64,000 bases of DNA, from contig NZ_AOII01000042.1 of NCBI RefSeq assembly GCF_000337615.1, positions 18,625 to 82,624 of the forward strand, in the 5' to 3' direction. The notes beneath the pieces were generated by a model, which worked only from the letters and a program-made list of their open reading frames with translations, searched no databases and was not told the DNA's origin. The stretch is from Natrinema pallidum DSM 3751. Its GTDB lineage: Archaea; Halobacteriota; Halobacteria; Halobacteriales; Natrialbaceae. The position numbers and the translations under genes are program-made. Below are positions 31,272-42,328 of the stretch, piece after piece; within the stretch, counting starts at the first letter, position 1, and each line of letters opens with the position of its first letter.

Positions 31272-31496
31272 ACCCGAGCCACACACGGGGACGGCAAAAA
31301 CGTCACGGCACTGGGACCGCCGACGGCAGCCGTCGCCGACAGCATCGTCTTCGCGACGCGTCGCTGCCGGTCGCTCGAGCGCGCCCTCTCGGCCGGCCGC
31401 GTGGGCTGGCGCTCGAGGCGGACGGACGCGGACGCCGTCACGGTTTGGATGCTGTTCGCGTCGCGCCGACACGGAGCGGCGACTCCCACGCCCGGG

Positions 31497-31916
31497 TCAG
31501 GCTCGAGACTCGATGTCCGCGGCGATGTCGTCGAGTTCGTCGTCGGCGAGGTCGGGGCGATCGCCCGTGATGGCGTGAATGGGGCCGCCGCCGTCGCCCT
31601 CGAAGCGGGGGACGATGTGACAGTGGACGTGGGGGACCTCCTGCCCTGCCGCCTCGCCGTTGTTGAACGCGACGGTCGTCGCGTCGGCGTCGACGCTCTC
31701 CTCGACGGCGGGGACCATGCGGTGAACCGTGTCGTAGAGGGCTGCGGCGACGTCGTCCGGCACGTCGTTCAGCCGCTCGTACTCGTCTCTCGGGATCACC
31801 AGCGTGTGGCCCGGAGCCAGCGGGTTGGCGTCGAGGAACGCGACGGTCGTCTCGTCTTCGTACACGATTCGCGCCGGGATCTCTCCCTCCACGATCTGGC
31901 TGAAGATCGTACTCAT
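31497..31916 (-). CDS. HIT-family nucleotide hydrolase
   Basis: This is a histidine-triad protein of 139 residues. The catalytic motif HVHCHIVPRF (H-x-H-x-H) is at about residue 96, and the N-terminal FSQIVEGEIPARIVYED and GHTLVIPRDEY are typical of the HINT/Hit branch that hydrolyses adenosine phosphoramidates or other dinucleotides. It is monocistronic, with ATG at 31916. The gene borders the AT-richer accessory patch, so it marks the edge of the core chromosome there. Confidence 0.93.
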   Translation of the reverse strand: MSTIFSQIVEGEIPARIVYEDETTVAFLDANPLAPGHTLVIPRDEYERLNDVPDDVAAALYDTVHRMVPAVEESVDADATTVAFNNGEAAGQEVPHVHCHIVPRFEGDGGGPIHAITGDRPDLADDELDDIAADIESRA

Positions 31917-32040
31917 ACGCGGGTATGTGTCGGCTCGGCGTATGAAGGTTACCGACGAGTCGATCGGGGATCGGTTTCGATCGGACAGTTGGCGGCGTCC
32001 GCGATGTGCCACTATTGTATCGTTTGATATCGCTGTCGTA

Positions 32041-32436
32041 TCAACTACTGCTGTCGTATACGTGGTCCGGGCTTGTGAGGTCAATTACAATGAGTTCTTG
32101 TTCGTCATCCCATGTCGCTTTGTATCTTGTTGTCTTCTCTGGTACGATGTCGTATTCATTTAAGAACGCTCTACAGTTGACTTGTCCACCGTGCCCTTCT
32201 CGGTCACTTTTTCGAACCTTATACGATGCATCCGTCTCATCGACTCTCGGATGGAGGCCAACTTTCTGGTTCACAGCGTCGTTGAACAGCTCAACGTAGT
32301 CCTTTTCCTCGAAATATTCCGAGACAGCCGCATGATTAATTCCTACTGTGCCGCTTTTGCGAAGCGAAACACGAGGTCCAACTCCGGATTTGCCACCTGC
32401 TTTACCACCTTTCTTGGTAAACTTCTTGAACCCCAT
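32041..32436 (-). CDS. Plasmid/virus-like haloarchaeal protein in the AT-rich patch
   Basis: The 131-residue protein starts MGFKKFTKKGGKAGGKSGVG and continues with a VSLRKSGTVGINHAAVSEYF segment, a GGQVNCRAFLNEYDI segment and a YKATWDDEQELIVIDL C-terminus. I associate this pattern with conserved haloarchaeal proteins carried by proviruses and plasmids; the function is unknown. The DNA is clearly poorer in GC than the neighbours. ATG 32460 (MHEDILEYM...) is an alternative start. It sits beside an integrase remnant, supporting a mobile origin. Confidence 0.55.
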   Translation of the reverse strand: MGFKKFTKKGGKAGGKSGVGPRVSLRKSGTVGINHAAVSEYFEEKDYVELFNDAVNQKVGLHPRVDETDASYKVRKSDREGHGGQVNCRAFLNEYDIVPEKTTRYKATWDDEQELIVIDLTSPDHVYDSSS

Positions 32437-32549
32437 ATACTCCAATATATCCTCATGCATAATATGTCTTTCCCACTTACTTCTTTTACGGTTGTTTTTG
32501 CAACACTGACCTACTGAATTCCACCCTTCGGATAAATCAATGTGTATCT

Positions 32550-32711
32550 CTACCGTTTCCAGTTTACATGATCGAGCGCCTCCTGCAACGTACTGTCGTT
32601 CATGTCTCCCTTCAGTGCGGCGACATCGAATGAACGCCTAAGCGTGTCTGCGGTAGTTTTGCAACGGTTGCTTTCGTTCAGTCTTCGTACTTTCTTGCTT
32701 CTACAACTCAC
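32550..32711 (-). CDS. Possible 53-residue ORF overlapping the integrase end
   Basis: A GTG at 32711 opens a 53-codon frame (MSCRSKKVRRLNESNRCKTT, then ADTLRRSFDVAALKGDMNDS) that ends LDHVNWKR at 32550. It overlaps the stop region of the recombinase remnant by 11 bases, the arrangement expected of a small accessory gene translated with the integrase. Charge and hydrophobic patterns look protein-like, unlike most short frames here. There is no other support. Confidence 0.35.
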   Translation of the reverse strand: MSCRSKKVRRLNESNRCKTTADTLRRSFDVAALKGDMNDSTLQEALDHVNWKR

Positions 32712-33087
32712 TCGCTATCTCTTTCCCTCGGCGTTGTGCATCTTCCTCGAACATGGAACTGTCGTAGTGTTTCCGGAGGGTATCAGGAGCTGCGTTTACT
32801 CGACCACTGATTACCTCCCACGAAAGCTATTTTCCCCGCATACGGGTGACTGAACTACGCCGAAGGTCATAGGTACCAATGCTCTTATCGCACTTGTGCT
32901 TGTTATGCTTCGAGTACGCACGGTCACCTCAGACACTTACTGACGTGGTATCATGATATAGTGTGGACTTGGCTACCCAACCATAGGCTGAGGTTAGCAG
33001 TGTACCACTGTTTTCCTTCGGTTCCTTGCACTCGTGTTTGATGTAGTCGGAGATGACGGTCATCACCTCGATAGTGTTCAGATACGC
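32701..33087 (-). pseudogene. Tyrosine recombinase (integrase) remnant with two in-frame stops
   Basis: A single minus-strand frame of 129 codons reads AYLNTIEVMTVISDYIKH, then LLTSAYGWVAKSTLYH, DLRRSSVTRMRGK, and SWEVISGRVNAAPDTLRKHY before ending EIASEL. These blocks, in this order, are those of the C-terminal catalytic domain of haloarchaeal XerC/D-type integrases. The frame is interrupted by TGA at 32929-32931 and TAG at 32827-32829. The N-terminal SAM-like domain is missing, cut where the transposase fragment begins. It is dead as a single gene and marks a past integration. Confidence 0.8.
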
Positions 33088-33089
33088 CG

Positions 33090-33358
33090 ATTCCATGCGA
33101 AGGCGAATGATCTCAACCACTCATCAGCAATTTCTGCTTTGGTGTTACGAAAGCAGTTCGAAAATGATATAGTTCGTTGCTGAAATCGAGGCTGTGTCGA
33201 GAGCAAGCGTCTTGAAGCGGTGTTGCTCCATTGATGGGAAACACGGCGTCATCGACATCGTGTTTTTCACGTAGTTCAGCGAAGAATGTGTGAGCGAAGA
33301 CGTTTGTTCTCACTGGTTTAAGCTTTGTATAGAGCAAATCGCTTGTCTCAGGATCGAC
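33090..33358 (-). mobile_element. IS6-type transposase fragment, fused and deleted
   Basis: Two minus-strand pieces match the middle and end of haloarchaeal IS6-family DDE transposases. The first (33358-33182) reads VDPETSDLLYTKLKPVRTN, FFAELREKHDVDDAVF and GATPLQDACSRHSLDF; the second (33164-33090, another frame) reads FSNCFRNTKAEIADEW and RSFAFAWN. The stretch between them, which should hold the catalytic Glu region, is missing, and the second catalytic Asp reads Asn (VFPINGA). No inverted repeats are seen. The element is a remnant and cannot transpose. Confidence 0.75.
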
Positions 33359-33790
33359 GGTCTCGAGTTCGGTCAGCAGATGGGGCCGGCAGTTCGTTCG
33401 CTCTTCGGGAGTGGGTTCGCGATTGCTCGTCGGGTCGGTCGGGTCCACTGGAACGCATTTCACCGCGTTCGTGTAGTAGGCGTCGTCACCGTAGCCGATG
33501 TCGGCGACCAGCCGACGAATGCGCCGTCCGGAGTGGCGCGAGGTGTAGGCCTTGCCGGTCCAGTTCCCGCCCCGCCAGCGATCGGCGTCGGGGGTGCCGC
33601 GGCCAGGTGCCTCGCCGACGACCACGATGCTGGTGTCGAGGTCGCCGGTTCCCCACGAAATGCACTCCCGGGAGTCGGCAAGGGCTGAGCAACGGGTACA
33701 TCCGGGCTCGAGGACGTTGCGACTGGTCGGATAGGTTGGGTCGTCGGTGCCTGCGGAGTCGGGGTCGGTATCGGGAGCTGACGCGGGCAC
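33113..33790 (-). CDS. Chimeric ORF: N-terminal uracil-DNA glycosylase fused to transposase
   Basis: Residues 1-148 are the start of a family 4/5-type uracil-DNA glycosylase: CTRC (31-34) for the Fe-S cluster, the VVVGEAPGRGTPDADRW water-activating motif at 56-72 and YYTNAVKC near 105. From VDPE (145-148) the sequence becomes IS6-type transposase through residue 203, then 22 residues of out-of-frame transposase DNA. The glycosylase C-terminus with its HPS-type catalytic motif is absent. Both parents have a VDPE-like stretch at the joint. The product is very probably inactive as a glycosylase. Confidence 0.8.
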   Translation of the reverse strand: MPASAPDTDPDSAGTDDPTYPTSRNVLEPGCTRCSALADSRECISWGTGDLDTSIVVVGEAPGRGTPDADRWRGGNWTGKAYTSRHSGRRIRRLVADIGYGDDAYYTNAVKCVPVDPTDPTSNREPTPEERTNCRPHLLTELETVDPETSDLLYTKLKPVRTNVFAHTFFAELREKHDVDDAVFPINGATPLQDACSRHSLDFSNELYHFRTAFVTPKQKLLMSG

Positions 33791-33905
33791 GGTCGGAGAT
33801 ACGCTTCCAGCGGTTTAGCCCGGTCGATCCGAACATGTGAACAACGGTATCTTGTCACATTCGAGGGGACAAGTTTACGTTGGACGGGCGGCTAACGGTG
33901 TGCTA

Positions 33906-34136
33906 ATGACATCGATCGGCCCGGAACTACTCGCGGAATCACTCCAATTGGTCCTCTACGCTCTCATCGGGGGCGTGTTGACGGTCGGCGGCGTCCTCGT
34001 CGAACAGGCGAGCGTCCAGCACTACGGGTCCGGCGAGGCGATGATCGCGCTGTGGCTGGCCGCGCTCGGCGGCGTTATGCTCTATGCCGGCGCGTACGGA
34101 CTGGGCTACCAGAAGGTACTCTCGCAGTACGTCTGA
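33906..34136 (+). CDS. Small membrane protein
   Basis: A 76-residue protein from ATG 33906 (MTSIGPELLAESLQLVLYAL) has two hydrophobic segments, residues about 10-32 and 44-66, and ends GYQKVLSQYV. In-frame upstream sequence to 33837 is not protein-like. It is divergent from the glycosylase chimera. Similar short proteins are common in haloarchaea; the function is unknown. Confidence 0.6.
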   Translation: MTSIGPELLAESLQLVLYALIGGVLTVGGVLVEQASVQHYGSGEAMIALWLAALGGVMLYAGAYGLGYQKVLSQYV

Positions 34137-34332
34137 GCGCCGCAGGACTGGCTCGGTTTTCGAACTCTTATAGATGCTCGCCGTACCGTTCGCACACCGA
34201 ACGCACAGCCGTCGTGCGACGGGTGCGCTCGGCTGTCAGCGGTTCCGATAGCCCTTACCAGCGACCGGTGGCAACCATGCGGTGACCCGCAATATCGATT
34301 CCTCTTTACTGTCGGAGGCGATTAGGTGGGGT

Positions 34333-37300
34333 ATGAGCAGGTTCGGCGAGGTCGACGACCAGTACGACCCACACGAACTCGAGCAGCGGGTCTTCGAGTA
34401 CTGGGACGACGTCGATGCCTACGAGCAGACGGTCGAGCACCGATCGGACGGCGAGTCCTTCTTCTTCGTCGACGGTCCGCCGTACACGTCGGGGTCGGCG
34501 CACATGGGGACGACATGGAACAAATCGCTGAAGGACGTTTACCTCCGCTTTTTGCGAATGCAGGGGTACGACGTCACCGATCGGCCGGGCTACGACATGC
34601 ACGGGCTCCCGATCGAAACCCGTGTCGAGGAACGGCTGGGATTCGAAAATAAACAGGACATCGAGGAGTTCGGCGAGGAGAACTTCATCCAGGAGTGCAA
34701 GGACTACGCCGACGAGCAACTCGAGGGGCTTCAGGAGGACTTCCAGGACTTCGGCGTCTGGATGGACTGGGACGACCCCTACCGGACGGTCGAACCCGAG
34801 TACATGGAAGCTGCCTGGTGGGGGTTCTCGAAGGCGGCCGACCGCGGACTCGTCGAGAAGGGCCACCGCTCGATCTCGCAGTGTCCCCGGTGTGAGACCG
34901 CGATCGCGAACAACGAGGTCGAGTACGAGGACGTCGAGGACCCCTCGATCTACGTCAAATTCGATCTCGAGGATCGGGACGGGAAACTCGTCGTCTGGAC
35001 GACGACCCCGTGGACGGTCCCGGCGAACACCTTCGTCGCCGTCGACGAGGACGGTGACTACGTCGGCGTCCGGGCCGAGAGGGACGGCGAGGAGGAACTG
35101 CTGTACGTCGCCGAAGCGAAACACGAGGCGGTCCTGCGCGAGGGCCGCTACGATGACTACGAGGTCGTCGCGGAACACTCCGGCGAGGACCTGATCGGCT
35201 GGTCCTACGAGCACCCGCTCGCCGAGGAGGTGCCCGATCACGTCGACGCCGAGGGGACGTTCGAGGTCTACGCGGCCGACTACGTCGATACCGACGGCGA
35301 CGGCACCGGACTCGTCCACTCCGCGCCCGGCCACGGTGAAGTGGACTTCGAGCGCGGCCGCGAACTCGGATTCCCGATCTTCTGTCCGGTCGGCGGCGAC
35401 GGCGTCTACACCGAAGAGGCCGGCAAGTACGCGGGCCAGTTCGTCAAAGACGCCGATCCGGAGATCACGGCCGACCTCGAGGACAACGGCGCGTTGCTCG
35501 CCTCGGGGACGGTCCAGCACAGTTACGGTCACTGCTGGCGCTGTGACACGGGCATCCTCCAGATCGTCACCGACCAGTGGTTCATCACGATCACCGACGT
35601 CAAAGACGACCTCCTCGCGAACATCGAAGACAGCGAGTGGCACCCCGAGTGGGCGCGGGACAACCGCTTCCGTGATTTCGTCGAGGAGGCACCCGACTGG
35701 AACGTCTCCCGGCAGCGCTACTGGGGCATTCCGCTCCCGATCTGGACGCCCGAAGACCGGGACGACGACGAAGAGCGGCTCGTCATCAGCGACCGCGAGG
35801 AACTCGCGGACCGCGTCGATCAGGACATCGACCCGGACGCCGTCGACCTCCACAAGGACACGGTCGACGATCTGACGATCACCGAAGACGGGACCACCTA
35901 CACGCGCGTTCCGGACGTGTTCGACGTCTGGCTCGACTCCTCGGTCGCGTCGTGGGGCACCCTGAACTACCCCTCGGACGACAGCCGGTTCGACGACCTC
36001 TGGCCCGCCGACTTCATCCTCGAGGCTCACGACCAGACGCGGGGCTGGTTCTGGTCCCAGTTGGGGATGGGGACCGCGGCGCTCGGCGAGAGCCCGTATC
36101 AGGAGGTTCTGATGCACGGCCACGCGCTCATGCCCGACGGCCGCGCGATGAGCAAATCCAAGGACATCCTGATCGACCCCCACGAGGCGATCGATCGCCA
36201 CGGCCGGGACGTCATGCGGCTGTTCCTCCTCTCGAACAACCCGCAGGGCGAGGACATGCGCTTCGACTGGGACGGGATGCAGACGATGGAGAACCACCTC
36301 CGGACGCTCTGGAACGTCTTCCGGTTCCCGCTGCCGTACATGCGGTTGGACGAGTTCGACCCCACGGCGACGACGCTCGAGGAGGTCGACGCGGACCTCG
36401 AACTGATCGACGAGTGGGTCCTCGCCCGCTTGCAGTCCACGAAGGCCGAGATGACCGCGGCCTTCGAGGACCGCCGGCAGGATCGGGCGCTCGAGGCGCT
36501 GATCGAGTTCGTCGTCGAGGACGTCTCGCGGTTCTACGTGCAGGCGGTCCGCGAGCGCATGTGGGCCGAGGAGGACAGCGGCTCGAAGACGGCCGCCTAT
36601 GCGACGATCTATCGGGTCCTCCGGGAGGGCGTCGCCCTGCTTGCACCGTACGCGCCGTTCATCAGCGAGCAGATCTACGGCACGCTCACCGGCGACGACG
36701 GGTTCGATACCGTCCACATGGAGGACTGGCCCGCCGTCGACGAGTACTGGGAGGACGAGCAACTCGAGACAGACGTCGCGCTCCTGCGCGCGATCGAGGA
36801 GGCCGGCGCGAACGCCCGTCAGCAGGCCGGCCGCAAGCTTCGCTGGCCCGTTCCGCGCGTCGTCGTGGCCGCCGACGATCAGCGGGTCGTCGACGCCGTT
36901 TCCCGCCACACCGAACTGCTCGAGGACCGGCTCAACGCCCGCGAGATCGAACTCGTCTCGCCGGACGACCGCTGGGAGGAGCTGCAGTACAGCGCCGAGG
37001 CCGACATGAGCGAACTCGGTCCGGCGTTCGGCGACCGCGCCGGCCAGGTCATGACCGCGCTCAACGAGGCCCGCATCGACGAGCCGAGCCTCGACGCGAT
37101 CGAGGACGCCGTTTCGGATGTCCTCGAGGAGAGCGCGGAGCCACGCTCCGCGGAAGACGCGAGCGGCGATGAGCCGCGAGCGCGACAGGAGATCACCGAC
37201 GAGATGGTTTCCTTCGTGACCCAGACGCCGGACAGCGTCGCCGGCACCGCGTTTAGCACCGACGGCGACGACCGGGGCGTCGCCTACGTCGACGCCTCGC

Positions 37301-37590
37301 TGACCGACGACATCGAGAGCGAGGGCTACGCCCGCGAGGTCATCCGCCGCGTCCAGGAGATGCGCAAGGACCTCGAACTCGATGTCGAAGAGCGGATCGC
37401 ACTCGAGTTCGCGATCGACGACGATCGGATCGCCGATCTCGTCGACGAACGGGAGAGTCTGATCCGCGAGGAGGTTCGTGCCGACGAACGCCGGCCCGTC
37501 GAGGACGGCCACCGGAAGGAGTGGGATGTCGAGGACGTGTCGATGGAGATCGCGATCGAGCCGCTGGCGGCGGCGGAAGCATCGGACTAG
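34333..37590 (+). CDS. ileS: Isoleucyl-tRNA synthetase
   Basis: This class I synthetase (1085 residues) charges tRNA-Ile. The HIGH motif is HMGT at 57-60 after DGPPYTSGSA, the KMSKS loop is MSKSK at about 606-610, and the CP1 editing domain (about 185-400) and anticodon-binding domain (about 700 onward) are all present. Residues about 935-960 form an acidic, low-complexity insertion common in halophiles. The ATG at 34333 is chosen: it has G-rich SD-like sequence just upstream (AGGTGGGG). The frame is open to a GTG at 34282. It is a single-gene unit. Confidence 0.97.
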   Translation: MSRFGEVDDQYDPHELEQRVFEYWDDVDAYEQTVEHRSDGESFFFVDGPPYTSGSAHMGTTWNKSLKDVYLRFLRMQGYDVTDRPGYDMHGLPIETRVEERLGFENKQDIEEFGEENFIQECKDYADEQLEGLQEDFQDFGVWMDWDDPYRTVEPEYMEAAWWGFSKAADRGLVEKGHRSISQCPRCETAIANNEVEYEDVEDPSIYVKFDLEDRDGKLVVWTTTPWTVPANTFVAVDEDGDYVGVRAERDGEEELLYVAEAKHEAVLREGRYDDYEVVAEHSGEDLIGWSYEHPLAEEVPDHVDAEGTFEVYAADYVDTDGDGTGLVHSAPGHGEVDFERGRELGFPIFCPVGGDGVYTEEAGKYAGQFVKDADPEITADLEDNGALLASGTVQHSYGHCWRCDTGILQIVTDQWFITITDVKDDLLANIEDSEWHPEWARDNRFRDFVEEAPDWNVSRQRYWGIPLPIWTPEDRDDDEERLVISDREELADRVDQDIDPDAVDLHKDTVDDLTITEDGTTYTRVPDVFDVWLDSSVASWGTLNYPSDDSRFDDLWPADFILEAHDQTRGWFWSQLGMGTAALGESPYQEVLMHGHALMPDGRAMSKSKDILIDPHEAIDRHGRDVMRLFLLSNNPQGEDMRFDWDGMQTMENHLRTLWNVFRFPLPYMRLDEFDPTATTLEEVDADLELIDEWVLARLQSTKAEMTAAFEDRRQDRALEALIEFVVEDVSRFYVQAVRERMWAEEDSGSKTAAYATIYRVLREGVALLAPYAPFISEQIYGTLTGDDGFDTVHMEDWPAVDEYWEDEQLETDVALLRAIEEAGANARQQAGRKLRWPVPRVVVAADDQRVVDAVSRHTELLEDRLNAREIELVSPDDRWEELQYSAEADMSELGPAFGDRAGQVMTALNEARIDEPSLDAIEDAVSDVLEESAEPRSAEDASGDEPRARQEITDEMVSFVTQTPDSVAGTAFSTDGDDRGVAYVDASLTDDIESEGYAREVIRRVQEMRKDLELDVEERIALEFAIDDDRIADLVDERESLIREEVRADERRPVEDGHRKEWDVEDVSMEIAIEPLAAAEASD

Positions 37591-37868
37591 AGAGCCGCTG
37601 TCCGTCACCGCACACCCGTTCACGCGACGGCTGTGCGATCAGTGTGTCGATCGTTGCAGTTGGTATTATCGCGTCCCCCGAACGTCGCGAGAGCTGCAGC
37701 GGATGCGCACCCCTCGAACCTGAGCGGGGAACGGAGTGACCGTGAGCGGTGAGGCGGTTGTTTTCTGGCCGGAGTTGTGCGTAACCGGTCCCGACAGAAG
37801 GGAGTCACCCGAACGTGACAGTGACGCTGCCACAAACGTCTTGATCGCTGACTCACCAGAATCGAGTA

Positions 37869-39959
37869 GTGAACTCCCGTGTCGTCGGTCTCGCGGTCGT
37901 CGTCTTGCTCGTCGGAAGCCTGCCGGCCGGCGTCGGTGCCGGGGAGCCGTCCCGACCGGTCGACTCGCCGTCGGCAGCCAGCGTCGATATCGGACCCGCC
38001 GACGAGCCGCCCGCTTCGGTTGGGACGAGTGCCGGGTCGACGGCGAGCAGCGATACCGATAACGTCCTTTCCCGGACGACCGTCCTCCGCCACCGGCAGG
38101 ACGACCCCGACACCTTCGAGGTGGAGACGACGGTTCACGTCCCCGAGGCCGTGACGGCACTCGAGATCGAACTCGAACCGGGCGCGACCGTCGAGGAGAC
38201 TGCAGGACTCGAGCGGACGGACGAGCGGACGTTCGAGTGGGCCGGAGACGCCGCCGAGGCGACGATCCGGTACGCGATGCCGGCCGAGCGGCGGGGGAGC
38301 CAACAGCAGGGGGACGGCTCCGGAGAGGGGTACACGTTCGTCGATACCGGCGACTGGGGCGTGGTAGCGGTTCCGGACGTGTCGCTTTTCTACCGGCGAA
38401 CCGCGCCCGTCGGACTCGAGCGGACGGTCCGGGTCGACGGCCCGGGCGCGACCGGCGGTGATATCGCTTTCTTCGGCCCGGTAACGGTCCACGAGCGACC
38501 CGTCGACGGCGGGACGATCAGGCTGGCCGTCCCCGACGCTGCGACGCTCGAAGAGTCGCCGGACGCGGTACTGACCGCACTCGCGGACGCACGCGACCGC
38601 CTCACCGTCGGCGCACGGAGCGACGACGTATTCATGGTCGCGGTACCGAACGAGACCGACTGGGGCTCGAAGCGCGGGCTCCAGTACGGCGAGTCGGACG
38701 CGTGGGTCGTCGACAACGCCACGCTCGACGAGCGGAACCCGGTCTGGCTCCACGAATACGTCCACATCCGGCAGGATTTCGCCGACGGGACCGAGGTCGA
38801 CCCCGCGGTGGCGTGGGTTTCCGAGGGGCAGGCAGACTACTACGCCGGTCTGCTCGCCCTCGAGAGCGGCGCGACCGACTTCGGCGAGTTCCGATCGCTC
38901 CTCGAGCGCGGCGAGCGCGAGCCGTACGCCGGTGGCGTCCTCGCCGACCGGTCCACGTGGGACCACCCGGAGACCCACTACGCGAAGGGCACACTCGTCT
39001 ACGGTGAGATCGACCGCCGGCTGCGGCTCGCGACGGAGGGTGATCGGACGCTTGCGGACGTGTTCCGGTCGCTGAACGCCCAGGAGGAACCCGTGACCGA
39101 GGCGGCGTTCATGGACGCGCTCGAGGACGAAGGCGGACCGGCGGTCCGTACGGTCGCGGAGCGATACACGCGGACGGCGGAGACGCCCGAGATGTGGACC
39201 CGACGCGAACACGAGGCCGCCTTCGGCCGGTCGGCCGCGGTCTTCGAGCACGGACTGGGGTCCGGGCCGATCGACGTAGCCGATCGAGAGTGGCCGCGCT
39301 GGTCGGCGTCGGCAACCGGCGGTACCGACGGCGACGACCGCACGCTCATCGCGGTGCCGGCCGGCGAATCCGTGACGGTTCCGAGCGCGGCCGCCAACGT
39401 CGGCGAGCACGAGGGGACCTACGACGCGACGCTACAGGTCGACGGCCGCGTCGTCGATCACCGCCGGGGGACGCTCGCGCCCGGCGAGGATGCGACCCAC
39501 GCCCTCTCGTGGACGCCGTCCGAACCAGGTGAATACGATATCCGCGTCGGCTCGGGGCGGCTGACGGCGGTCGTCCGGTCGTCCTCGAGCGTGACCGTGA
39601 GGGAGCTGCAGGTCTCGCCCGACCGCATCGAACCCGGCGAGTCGGTGACGGCGACTGCGACGGTCGCGGCCGCCGGCGATCGGCCGGCCGCGGCTAGCCT
39701 CGCGTTCCGGACGGCCGACGGCGTCGCCGCGGAACGCGCGGTGGCGCTCCGGCCCGGCGAGACGACGACGGTCGACGCCACGCTCTGGTTCGACGAGGAC
39801 GGTCAGTACGAGGTCGCCGTTGGCGATCGAACGATGACGGTCGATGTCGGCGGCGACGCGTCGACACCAATGAGCGAGGAACTGCCCGGTTTCGGCGTGT
39901 CGGCGGCGCTGATAGCGATCGCACTCGTATTTGTCGGGGCGGGTCGTCGGCGCAGCTAA
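37869..39959 (+). CDS. Secreted HExxH metallopeptidase with PGF-CTERM anchor
   Basis: The 696-residue protein has a Sec signal peptide (about 1-24, AVVVLLVGSLPAGVGAG), a zinc site HEYVH at 295-299 with a likely third ligand Glu319 (WVSEGQADYY), giving a gluzincin-type arrangement, and a beta-sandwich region (about 480-650) with CARDB-like repeats. The C-terminus, ELPGFGVSAALIAIALVFVG then Arg-rich, is a PGF-CTERM signal cut by archaeosortase A, so the enzyme is lipid-anchored on the cell surface. The start is GTG 37869. The substrate is unknown. Confidence 0.85.
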   Translation: MNSRVVGLAVVVLLVGSLPAGVGAGEPSRPVDSPSAASVDIGPADEPPASVGTSAGSTASSDTDNVLSRTTVLRHRQDDPDTFEVETTVHVPEAVTALEIELEPGATVEETAGLERTDERTFEWAGDAAEATIRYAMPAERRGSQQQGDGSGEGYTFVDTGDWGVVAVPDVSLFYRRTAPVGLERTVRVDGPGATGGDIAFFGPVTVHERPVDGGTIRLAVPDAATLEESPDAVLTALADARDRLTVGARSDDVFMVAVPNETDWGSKRGLQYGESDAWVVDNATLDERNPVWLHEYVHIRQDFADGTEVDPAVAWVSEGQADYYAGLLALESGATDFGEFRSLLERGEREPYAGGVLADRSTWDHPETHYAKGTLVYGEIDRRLRLATEGDRTLADVFRSLNAQEEPVTEAAFMDALEDEGGPAVRTVAERYTRTAETPEMWTRREHEAAFGRSAAVFEHGLGSGPIDVADREWPRWSASATGGTDGDDRTLIAVPAGESVTVPSAAANVGEHEGTYDATLQVDGRVVDHRRGTLAPGEDATHALSWTPSEPGEYDIRVGSGRLTAVVRSSSSVTVRELQVSPDRIEPGESVTATATVAAAGDRPAAASLAFRTADGVAAERAVALRPGETTTVDATLWFDEDGQYEVAVGDRTMTVDVGGDASTPMSEELPGFGVSAALIAIALVFVGAGRRRS

Positions 39960-40067
39960 TCGAGTCCGTCCCGCTCCGGTCGCCGTGACACCTGCCCGAA
40001 CCGGCGTTCGAGAACTCCTGACCGACCGATCGCGTTCCGACGGTGGCGGCGAACGACCCCCTCGCGA

Positions 40068-40607
40068 TCACTCGAGGTCGACGCGGAACCGACAGGCGTC
40101 GGCTCCGTCGTCGACGCAGTCGGTTTTCGTGACGGTCGCGTCCGCGTCGAACGCGGCGACCACGCCCTCGAGAATGCCGTGGGCGAGCGCGCAGTATCGC
40201 TGGTCGCGGTGGGTGTCGTAGCTGACGATGGCGTGATCGGCCTCGGACGTACAGGAGAGTTCGGGAAGCGACGTGTCATCCGTGGCGGCCTCGATGTCGT
40301 TGTAGACGTCCTCGAGCCCGGCGAGCAGGTCGGGCAGCTCCCAGTCTCGGTTGATGTGGGCGCTGAACGTCGAGAGCAGTTTCGGGGCGAGCGTCGTCCC
40401 GAAGTCGCGCTCGATCGCCCGACGGTCCTGTGTCGCCATCGTCGAGAGCGTCTCGAGGATAGCGTCGATTTCCCCGTCGTCGTAGTGAGAAACGGGGAGG
40501 TAGAGCTTCGGCTCGAAGCCGGACTGCTCGACGATCGTATCCCAGGTACCGTCGTCGGTCCGTTCGACGACGTACTCCTTGAGGGTCTTGTGGACGATTC
40601 CGTGCAT
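40068..40607 (-). CDS. H-NOX (heme NO-binding) fold protein with Tyr in place of the proximal His
   Basis: The 179-residue protein starts MHGIVHKTLKEYVVERTDDG, a clear H-NOX N-terminus. A Y-x-T-x-R (YDTHR, 130-134) matches the Y-x-S-x-R heme-propionate motif, and the end has C164 and C172. The proximal heme ligand normally lies in an L-x-x-L-H helix; the equivalent helix here reads LEDVYNDI, placing Tyr102 where the His is expected. Either the heme is Tyr-ligated or the protein no longer binds NO in the usual way. It is monocistronic and not next to a kinase or cyclase. Confidence 0.75.
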   Translation of the reverse strand: MHGIVHKTLKEYVVERTDDGTWDTIVEQSGFEPKLYLPVSHYDDGEIDAILETLSTMATQDRRAIERDFGTTLAPKLLSTFSAHINRDWELPDLLAGLEDVYNDIEAATDDTSLPELSCTSEADHAIVSYDTHRDQRYCALAHGILEGVVAAFDADATVTKTDCVDDGADACRFRVDLE

Positions 40608-40710
40608 CTGAGAGTTCCGGTCGTTCTCCGTGACGGCTCGTGTGGCCGAGCCGCTCTCGTGCCACGCGCTAACAACTAGACCCGCGTCTGGGGGCTACTT
40701 AATCGTTTAC

Positions 40711-41568
40711 TTACAGGTGTGCCCCGAGCGTCGGTGCGACGGAGACGGTGTCGACGCCTCGCTCGATGGTATCGGTGCCGTATATCGCTTCGACGCCGGC
40801 TCGCGAGAGCTTCGTGACGGCGTTACGAGCCAGCAGGGGATGAACGCAGGTGACGAAGACTCGGCCGACGTCTCGCTTTTTAAGGACGGCAACGGCTTCG
40901 CTCATCGTCGACCCCGTCGCGATGATGTCGTCGACGACGACGACGTCGCGGCCGGCGACCTCGACATCGCTCGGCGAGATGTCGACTTCGGTTCCGGATC
41001 GGCGGGTCTTCTCGAAGTAGTCGGTCTCGCCCGCGCCGTAGGTATCCCGAACCGTTTCGGCGAGTTCGATAGCGCCCGCGTCGGGAGAAAGGAAAATCGG
41101 CTCCGCGAGGTCCTCGGGCAGGGGGGCGGCCAGTCGCCCGGCCGCGTCGACCGCCGTCGCCGTCGGCTCGAAGAAGTCACAGACCGCCCGCTCGTGAGGG
41201 TTGACGGTCAGTACCCGGTCCGTTCCGGTCGAAATCGCACGAGCGACTGCCCGCGCGGAGACGGGATGGCCCGGCTCGAAGGCCGCATCCTGCCGGCCGT
41301 AGCCCATGTAGGGCAGAACGGTGACGACCTCCTCGACGCCGGCCTCGCGGACGGCGTCCTGGAGTTGGAGCACCTCGAGATGGGCGTCGCTCGAGACGGT
41401 CGAGGCGACGATTACCGCCCGCTCCGGCTCGGCCTCGGCGACGCCGGGGACGGCGGCGAGCAGTTCACCGTCGGGAAAGCGGTCGTACTCGACGGCGGCG
41501 AGCGGTTCCTCGAGGTCGCGTGCGAGCGCCGCGGCCAGAGATTGCGACGCGGATCCGCTGATGATCAT
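40711..41568 (-). CDS. prs: Ribose-phosphate pyrophosphokinase
   Basis: This enzyme makes PRPP from ribose 5-phosphate and ATP for nucleotide, histidine and uracil salvage pathways. The 285-residue protein starts MIISGSASQSLAAALARDLE. It has the flexible-loop region VVTVLPYMGYGRQD near 83, the pyrophosphate/ribose loop VVVVDDIIATGSTM near 205 and the TVNPHERAVCDFF segment. The length fits archaeal class enzymes. A GGTTTAGC element about 22-30 bases upstream of the ATG at 41568 supports a leaderless start. It supplies Upp, HisA and HisI routes encoded in this window. Confidence 0.96.
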   Translation of the reverse strand: MIISGSASQSLAAALARDLEEPLAAVEYDRFPDGELLAAVPGVAEAEPERAVIVASTVSSDAHLEVLQLQDAVREAGVEEVVTVLPYMGYGRQDAAFEPGHPVSARAVARAISTGTDRVLTVNPHERAVCDFFEPTATAVDAAGRLAAPLPEDLAEPIFLSPDAGAIELAETVRDTYGAGETDYFEKTRRSGTEVDISPSDVEVAGRDVVVVDDIIATGSTMSEAVAVLKKRDVGRVFVTCVHPLLARNAVTKLSRAGVEAIYGTDTIERGVDTVSVAPTLGAHL

Positions 41569-41818
41569 AATCGGTGGGACAGCCCGGGGGCTAAACCAGT
41601 TTTCGTTCTCGATCGGCCCGTATTCGATCGGCAGACTCGGTGCAGCGCTCGACCGGTCCGCAATACCGAGGAACCGACAGCCGGTGCTCACCGTTTCGGG
41701 TGACCTTCCGCCGCGAAAACGCCCTTCGTAGCTTCACCTTGTGACGAGACGTACTTAAACCGCCCACGCGGGTTCGGGATGTATCGCCCCCGATCGGTGG
41801 CTCACCGCGGCGGATCGA

Positions 41819-42328
41819 TCACGCCGTGGCGTCGTCGACGGCCGCGTCGCCATCGCCACACGGGCCGCCGTCGGTGTCGCTCAGGATCTTCAGCCCGCCG
41901 TCGCGATCGACCAGTGCGAAGACGTTGACACAGCTCGAGTCGCCCAACTCTGCCGGGGTGACCTGGGTGGGTTCGCCCCCGTCCAGTCGGAACAGTACCC
42001 GGAAATCACCGGGTTCGGACGGCCAGTTTCGCTCGAGTTCCGCCCCGCTGTCGCCGGTCAGTTCGTGTGTCGACCAGTGTTCCGGTCCGTCGCCGAACTC
42101 GACGATCGCGTCGATGGTGTGCGTCTCGTCGTCCAAGTTCTCGAGCGAAATCGTCCCGAGGAGAGTCCCGTCGGTCCCGCTATCGGGGTCCGACGCCGCC
42201 GCGTCGCGGTCCGAGTTCCCGTCCTCGTTCCCGTCCCCGTCCCCATCACTGCCCATACAGCCGGCGACTGCGCCGGTAAGCGCGGTGCCGGTTGCGGCCA
42301 AGAGCCGCCGCCGTGGGTATCCCATCAT
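41819..42328 (-). CDS. Tat-exported lipoprotein, unknown
   Basis: The 169-residue protein has the twin-arginine signal YPRRRLLAATG and lipobox VAGC at Cys24. An Asp/Gly/Asn-rich linker (25-55) follows, then a compact domain with two cysteines near the end (DSSCVNVF and GGPCGDG) that could form a disulfide. It is probably anchored on the cell surface. Haloarchaea carry many similar orphan lipoproteins; no function can be assigned. Confidence 0.7.
   Translation of the reverse strand: MMGYPRRRLLAATGTALTGAVAGCMGSDGDGDGNEDGNSDRDAAASDPDSGTDGTLLGTISLENLDDETHTIDAIVEFGDGPEHWSTHELTGDSGAELERNWPSEPGDFRVLFRLDGGEPTQVTPAELGDSSCVNVFALVDRDGGLKILSDTDGGPCGDGDAAVDDATA

Follow-up and report, generated by a model that had tools for sequence, protein, structure and literature searches.

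Tyrosine recombinases share the catalytic tetrad R...HxxR...Y, as defined in section 8 of PMC8371274, where a YxxR form of box II is also described for the pNOB8-type integrases. The same source treats split integrase genes as a known archaeal feature, and its section 19 deals with archaeal integration into protein genes, which is known for genes other than the one discussed here. A literature search found nothing on the present locus or on uracil-DNA glycosylase (UDG) as an archaeal integration site. The systems closest to the remnants described below are, on the one hand, the haloarchaeal XerC/D-like tyrosine recombinases (PF02899 plus PF00589; L012, L018 and L010), showing ~29-37% identity to residues 7-121 of the integrase remnant int1, and, on the other hand, the IS6/ISH15-group insertion sequences (IS), for which a complete 0.69-kb element in the megaplasmid of Halobacterium sp. 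GN101 (L080), with a transposase annotated as IS6 family, has been used as the yardstick. The blocks (H/Y)xxR, 'VxSxR' and 'LxKHY' and the C-terminal end follow one another in the same order in int1 and in the XerC/D-like recombinases; however, int1 comprises the C-terminal third only, with two nonsense codons, a shortened loop and no Arg I.

The window, that is, the whole 64,000-nucleotide stretch of DNA that was analysed, contains int1 within a small island of low GC content, between an IS6 remnant and a second, weaker integrase remnant (Table 1). Taken as a whole, the locus is very probably the result of the integration of an element, an IS6 insertion, a deletion running from the IS into the UDG gene and subsequent drift, with int1 as the integrase pseudogene left behind.

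Table 1. Features of the locus, with coordinates in the window and the basis of each assignment
Feature	Coordinates	Strand	Basis
int1, haloarchaeal tyrosine recombinase, C-terminal remnant	32701..33069	-	homology, profile, alignment
In-frame TGA, in the Cys-rich loop of the recombinase	32929..32931	-	frame and alignment
In-frame TAG, between box II and the nucleophile Tyr	32827..32829	-	frame and alignment
IS6-family (ISH15-group) remnant, 3' transposase part with internal deletion	33070..33358	-	similarity and terminal repeat
Host uracil-DNA glycosylase (UDG) gene, 3' end lost	33351..33790	-	similarity, sister-genome comparison
Low-GC island, where sister genomes have the 3' end of UDG and intergenic DNA	32010..33350		GC, alignments
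int2, probable second tyrosine-recombinase remnant, XerC/D-like C-terminus, frameshifted	32470..32696	-	weak Pfam, profile
Intact 139-aa ORF inside the island, family unassigned	32041..32460	-	homologue search

When int1 was searched with X at the stops, tblastn-type matches with E <= 1e-3 were obtained in 113 of the 125 family genomes, its own included, and the best of those outside its own genome (G073, E 4.6e-11, 34% identity) is free of stops. Since Pfam gave no match to int1 and PHROGs a single one at E 0.19 only, a dedicated profile was built. Out of 24 loci, 20 had a tblastn match, and 16 intact homologues were aligned after discarding L019, which is too short, and L025, L032 and L081, whose long ORFs have doubtful starts. 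This profile, from which int1 was excluded, was run against the 642 six-frame pieces of the window, and the int1 frame was its sole good match (E 1.6e-19; the next place outside the frame, E 0.24), scoring 70.2 bits vs 14.9 for the best of 500 shuffles. Thus, the similarity to a haloarchaeal tyrosine recombinase C-terminus, as put forward in the original prediction, is far above chance, and by its catalytic domain int1 is a degenerate member of the family.

All of the intact homologues are encoded by unsplit genes, ~330-450 aa in length, and none of the 16 aligned has a stop. One of them, L012, contains the domains PF02899, PF13495 and PF00589 and resembles the XerC, XerD and XerA models with scores under their cut-offs. 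A structure search returned a single solved structure, 3nrw, whose match is to the N-terminal part of L029, another relative. No relative close enough to date the events, with more than ~35% identity across the whole stretch, came to light; exact peptide patterns of int1 gave no relatives in genome contigs or viral contigs, and relatives were absent from phages and represented in plasmids by two weak matches.

On the minus strand, the frame running from 33087 to 32701 has 128 codons up to its final stop (32703-32701), with a natural-looking C-terminal end, and strand, frame and both internal stops are just as had been claimed. The proposed span of 32701-33087 needs a correction: 33069-32701 is integrase, but the first ~18 nt (33070-33087) form the last part of the IS6 remnant, because the IS terminus lies at ~33070 and integrase similarity (E-V-M-T-V-I) starts directly there, at 33069. 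int1 keeps box II, which reads YDLR, and the Tyr at the nucleophile position in RKHYD; the TAG lies between them in a column where homologues mostly have Asp, Glu or Gly. Arg I belonged to the missing part, as did the N-terminal SAM-like core-binding domain, and the IS6 remnant and the cut UDG gene are found upstream instead. Taking into account that the catalytic tetrad is incomplete, int1 is a remnant rather than a working member of the family.

The neighbouring remnant belongs, by transposase similarity and terminal repeat, to the IS6 family, ISH15 group, the group name being taken from the annotation of matches H10, H11 and H22. It is closed at ~33070 by the terminal repeat TATCTGAACACTA and shows 84-85% identity to the L080 element over two blocks, up to and including this repeat, but the 5' half and an internal piece of the complete element are missing from it. 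At its other side, UDG similarity ends after codon 149, and the fusion point is the 8-bp GTCGATCC (33358-33351), which is the sequence of the IS parent, with GTCGAGCC in the UDG gene of sister genomes; the join at GTCGATCC thus creates an in-frame UDG-transposase chimera. Both joins, IS to integrase and UDG to IS, are plain in the sequence, and the earlier statement that the integrase abuts a transposase fragment whose flanks were later deleted stands, as the first join falls at the IS terminus and both UDG and the IS 5' half are cut.

UDG matches at E <= 1e-30 were found in 28 of the 29 genus genomes, own included; in the other 27, open frames have at least 237 codons, except in G051, where the frame has 132 codons with a TAA inside. 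The loss in the present genome amounts to ~90 codons, the locus is its only UDG match at E <= 1e-30, and a search of the rest of this genome for the UDG C-terminus, run without a positive control, was negative. The strain may, judging from its genome sequence, be without this uracil-DNA glycosylase. Loci L002-L008 of the same genome contain several partial and nested IS6/ISH15-like copies, some with repeated 3' ends, which show that this IS group is heavily decayed there.

The island is ~1.34 kb long, with a GC content of 0.44-0.54 in most 300-bp steps vs ~0.6-0.73 outside and a left edge blurred over 32010-32026. It is absent from two sister genomes, G054 and G051, which are 92-96% identical in most flanking blocks. 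G054 aligns at 31474-32008 (94%) and 33351-41849 (92%), and the ~374 bp that separate these blocks in G054 comprise the 3' end of UDG and a short intergenic segment; G051 aligns up to 32010 and again from 33351. None of the 124 other family genomes gave a match to the island DNA (32009-33060).

From the integrases, the low GC and the absence in sister genomes, an origin in integrative elements is inferred, and the order of events would be the following. One or more such elements would once have occupied the interval between HIT and UDG, beside or in the latter gene. An IS6/ISH15-type IS was then inserted into the integrase gene of the element, as is shown by the fact that integrase similarity ends at the IS terminus. 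A later deletion running from within the IS into UDG, its two ends sharing GTCGA(T/G)CC, would have taken the IS 5' half, anything between and the UDG 3' end, leaving the in-frame fusion and a headless integrase tail. This tail would have drifted thereafter without selection, acquiring its two nonsense codons.

It had been claimed that the coding text around the stops was intact. This is true of the reading frame, which has no frameshift in 369 nt, but not of its content: int1 keeps 17 of 35 strongly conserved positions (columns shared by at least 80% of homologues), compared with 27-34 of 35-36 for the homologues in leave-one-out comparisons. int1 has gaps at four of the 35 columns; once these are set aside, it keeps 17 of 31. 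The YxxR form of box II is no sign of decay, since it is also present in one intact homologue, L027, as well as in the pNOB8-type integrases. In a neutral-decay simulation limited to substitutions, the 16 homologues were randomly eroded to the level of int1 in 1600 runs, which took a median of 0.24 substitutions per site and produced a mean of 2.8 stops, with two or fewer in 47% of the runs; from the two most divergent homologues, ~0.15 substitutions per site and 2.1-2.2 stops were obtained. As such runs give 2-3 stops at the erosion of int1, its two stops are what plain neglect would be expected to produce. At 0.15-0.24 substitutions per site, some indels would normally be expected under neutral drift. 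Thus, given that there is no frameshift in 369 nt, part of the divergence is probably older than the inactivation, and the decay of int1 may be younger than its erosion suggests.

The idea that the decay must be recent or the stops read through finds no support: erosion of the conserved positions is heavy, both Arg I and the N-terminal domain are gone, and neither tRNA-Sec nor PylS was detected at cut-off. Read-through, with selenocysteine at the TGA, pyrrolysine at the TAG, or suppression, so that the protein would still be made, appears extremely improbable. When the loop is aligned to L010 without gaps, counting by eye backwards from HKCD, the TGA does coincide with a Cys of a C-x-C pair, where selenocysteine is classically found; however, the codon falls at other loop columns in the MAFFT and HMMER alignments. 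Haloarchaeal recoding was approached through its machinery only: the best tRNA-Sec matches (72-74 nt) reached at most 38.3 bits vs a cut-off of 47, and the one PylS match 31.9 bits vs 178, in loose searches that likewise give sub-cut-off matches in most control genomes. Moreover, the 5' two thirds of the gene are missing, and read-through would restore nothing useful to a protein deprived of its N-terminal domain and Arg I. That the stops are sequencing or assembly errors, in a gene otherwise recently truncated, would agree with the continuity of the rest of the frame, but we consider it quite unlikely: two separate wrong bases would be needed, and neither the IS truncation nor the 18 conserved positions lost out of 35 depend on the stops.

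As only the C-terminal part is present, int1 recalls the SSV-type 'suicidal' integrases, whose genes are split on integration, and could be an Int(C) half. In that case the gene would be broken at its own att core, but the break in int1 sits at the IS6 terminus; furthermore, the homologues are unsplit, with XerC/D-like SAM and catalytic domains in L012, the one scanned, and nonsense codons are found in addition, all of which leaves this explanation with a very small probability. There is hardly any likelihood that int1 is maintained for a new function, be it that of a C-terminal peptide binding DNA or one at the RNA level. The frame without frameshifts and the intact adjoining 139-aa ORF could be read in that way, but int1 has two stops and eroded conserved residues, in island DNA without a relative in the other family genomes. 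Most likely, int1 does nothing now.

Integrase and IS remnants are ordinary in chromosomes of this kind, and int1 is an ordinary integrase pseudogene, a genomic fossil of little importance as a single object. The use of the locus lies in its legibility as a record of integration, IS6 insertion, a short-homology deletion clipping a DNA-repair gene, and decay. It also teaches that readable frames on either side of a stop codon alone prove neither recent decay nor read-through.

Next to int1, the minus-strand frame 32711-32550 matches PF00589 at E 0.043, and at E 0.0023, still below the Pfam cut-off, when joined across a frameshift. This sequence, int2, matches the C-terminus of a 331-codon PF02899 plus PF00589 integrase in G005 (40% over 45 residues, E 8.1e-4), and a profile made of two sequences, the G005 integrase and one from G051, placed it at the top of the window (E 4.8e-4), with 22.7 bits vs 8.0 for the best of 1000 shuffles. 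int2 has His where its relatives carry the nucleophile Tyr. On these similarities, it is a probable second tyrosine-recombinase remnant of a type unlike int1, and, because the types differ, two integrases, and perhaps two elements, would have contributed to the island. A single element, as in the earlier view, is too simple for two unlike remnants side by side. A joint element carrying both types was considered, using two int2-type proteins as queries, and rejected, as no int2-type gene stands beside any int1-type homologue among the loci examined, mostly with 1.5-kb flanks. Besides itself, the 139-aa ORF has homologues in only two of the 125 family genomes, G073 (43%) and G041 (30%), and neither integrase type was found near these copies; viral contigs and phages gave no relatives of it, and plasmids one weak bacterial match.

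The att direct repeat near a tRNA gene that had been anticipated did not appear: there is no repeat of at least 11 bp in 31850-33500, and tRNA genes are absent from the window and from an 18-kb stretch of the same genome around the island (L076). Missing att sites are to be expected, since the right flank was deleted and the att partner would have gone with it.

In G051, a ~15-kb element (L065 9230-18001 plus L073 1-7284; contig C4, ~212237-227162) splits UDG between 11-bp direct repeats, ACCGCGTTCGT. Near one of its ends it encodes a 318-aa XerC/D-like integrase, adjoined by a 178-aa ORF; it also contains a 1214-aa ORF which looks by eye like a type IIG restriction-modification enzyme. The host gene is UDG, as here, and the integrase aligns with int2; however, the insertion lies elsewhere, ACCGCGTTCGT being uninterrupted in the window at the equivalent positions 33462-33472, and no int1-type integrase was found in the element. 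Taken with the two stacked integrase remnants described here, this case raises the tentative and rather doubtful suggestion that the UDG 3' part and the HIT-UDG gap are a recurrent landing site for integrase-bearing elements in the genus. If so, UDG would be a protein-gene attB whose repeated breakage could be tested for its effect on uracil repair.

The HIT-UDG gap is a variable slot, as two other genus genomes hold ~3 kb of extra genes in it (L063 5752-8887; L064 9287-12378), with ORFs that look by eye glycerophosphodiester phosphodiesterase-like, nucleotidyltransferase-like and glycerophosphotransferase-like.
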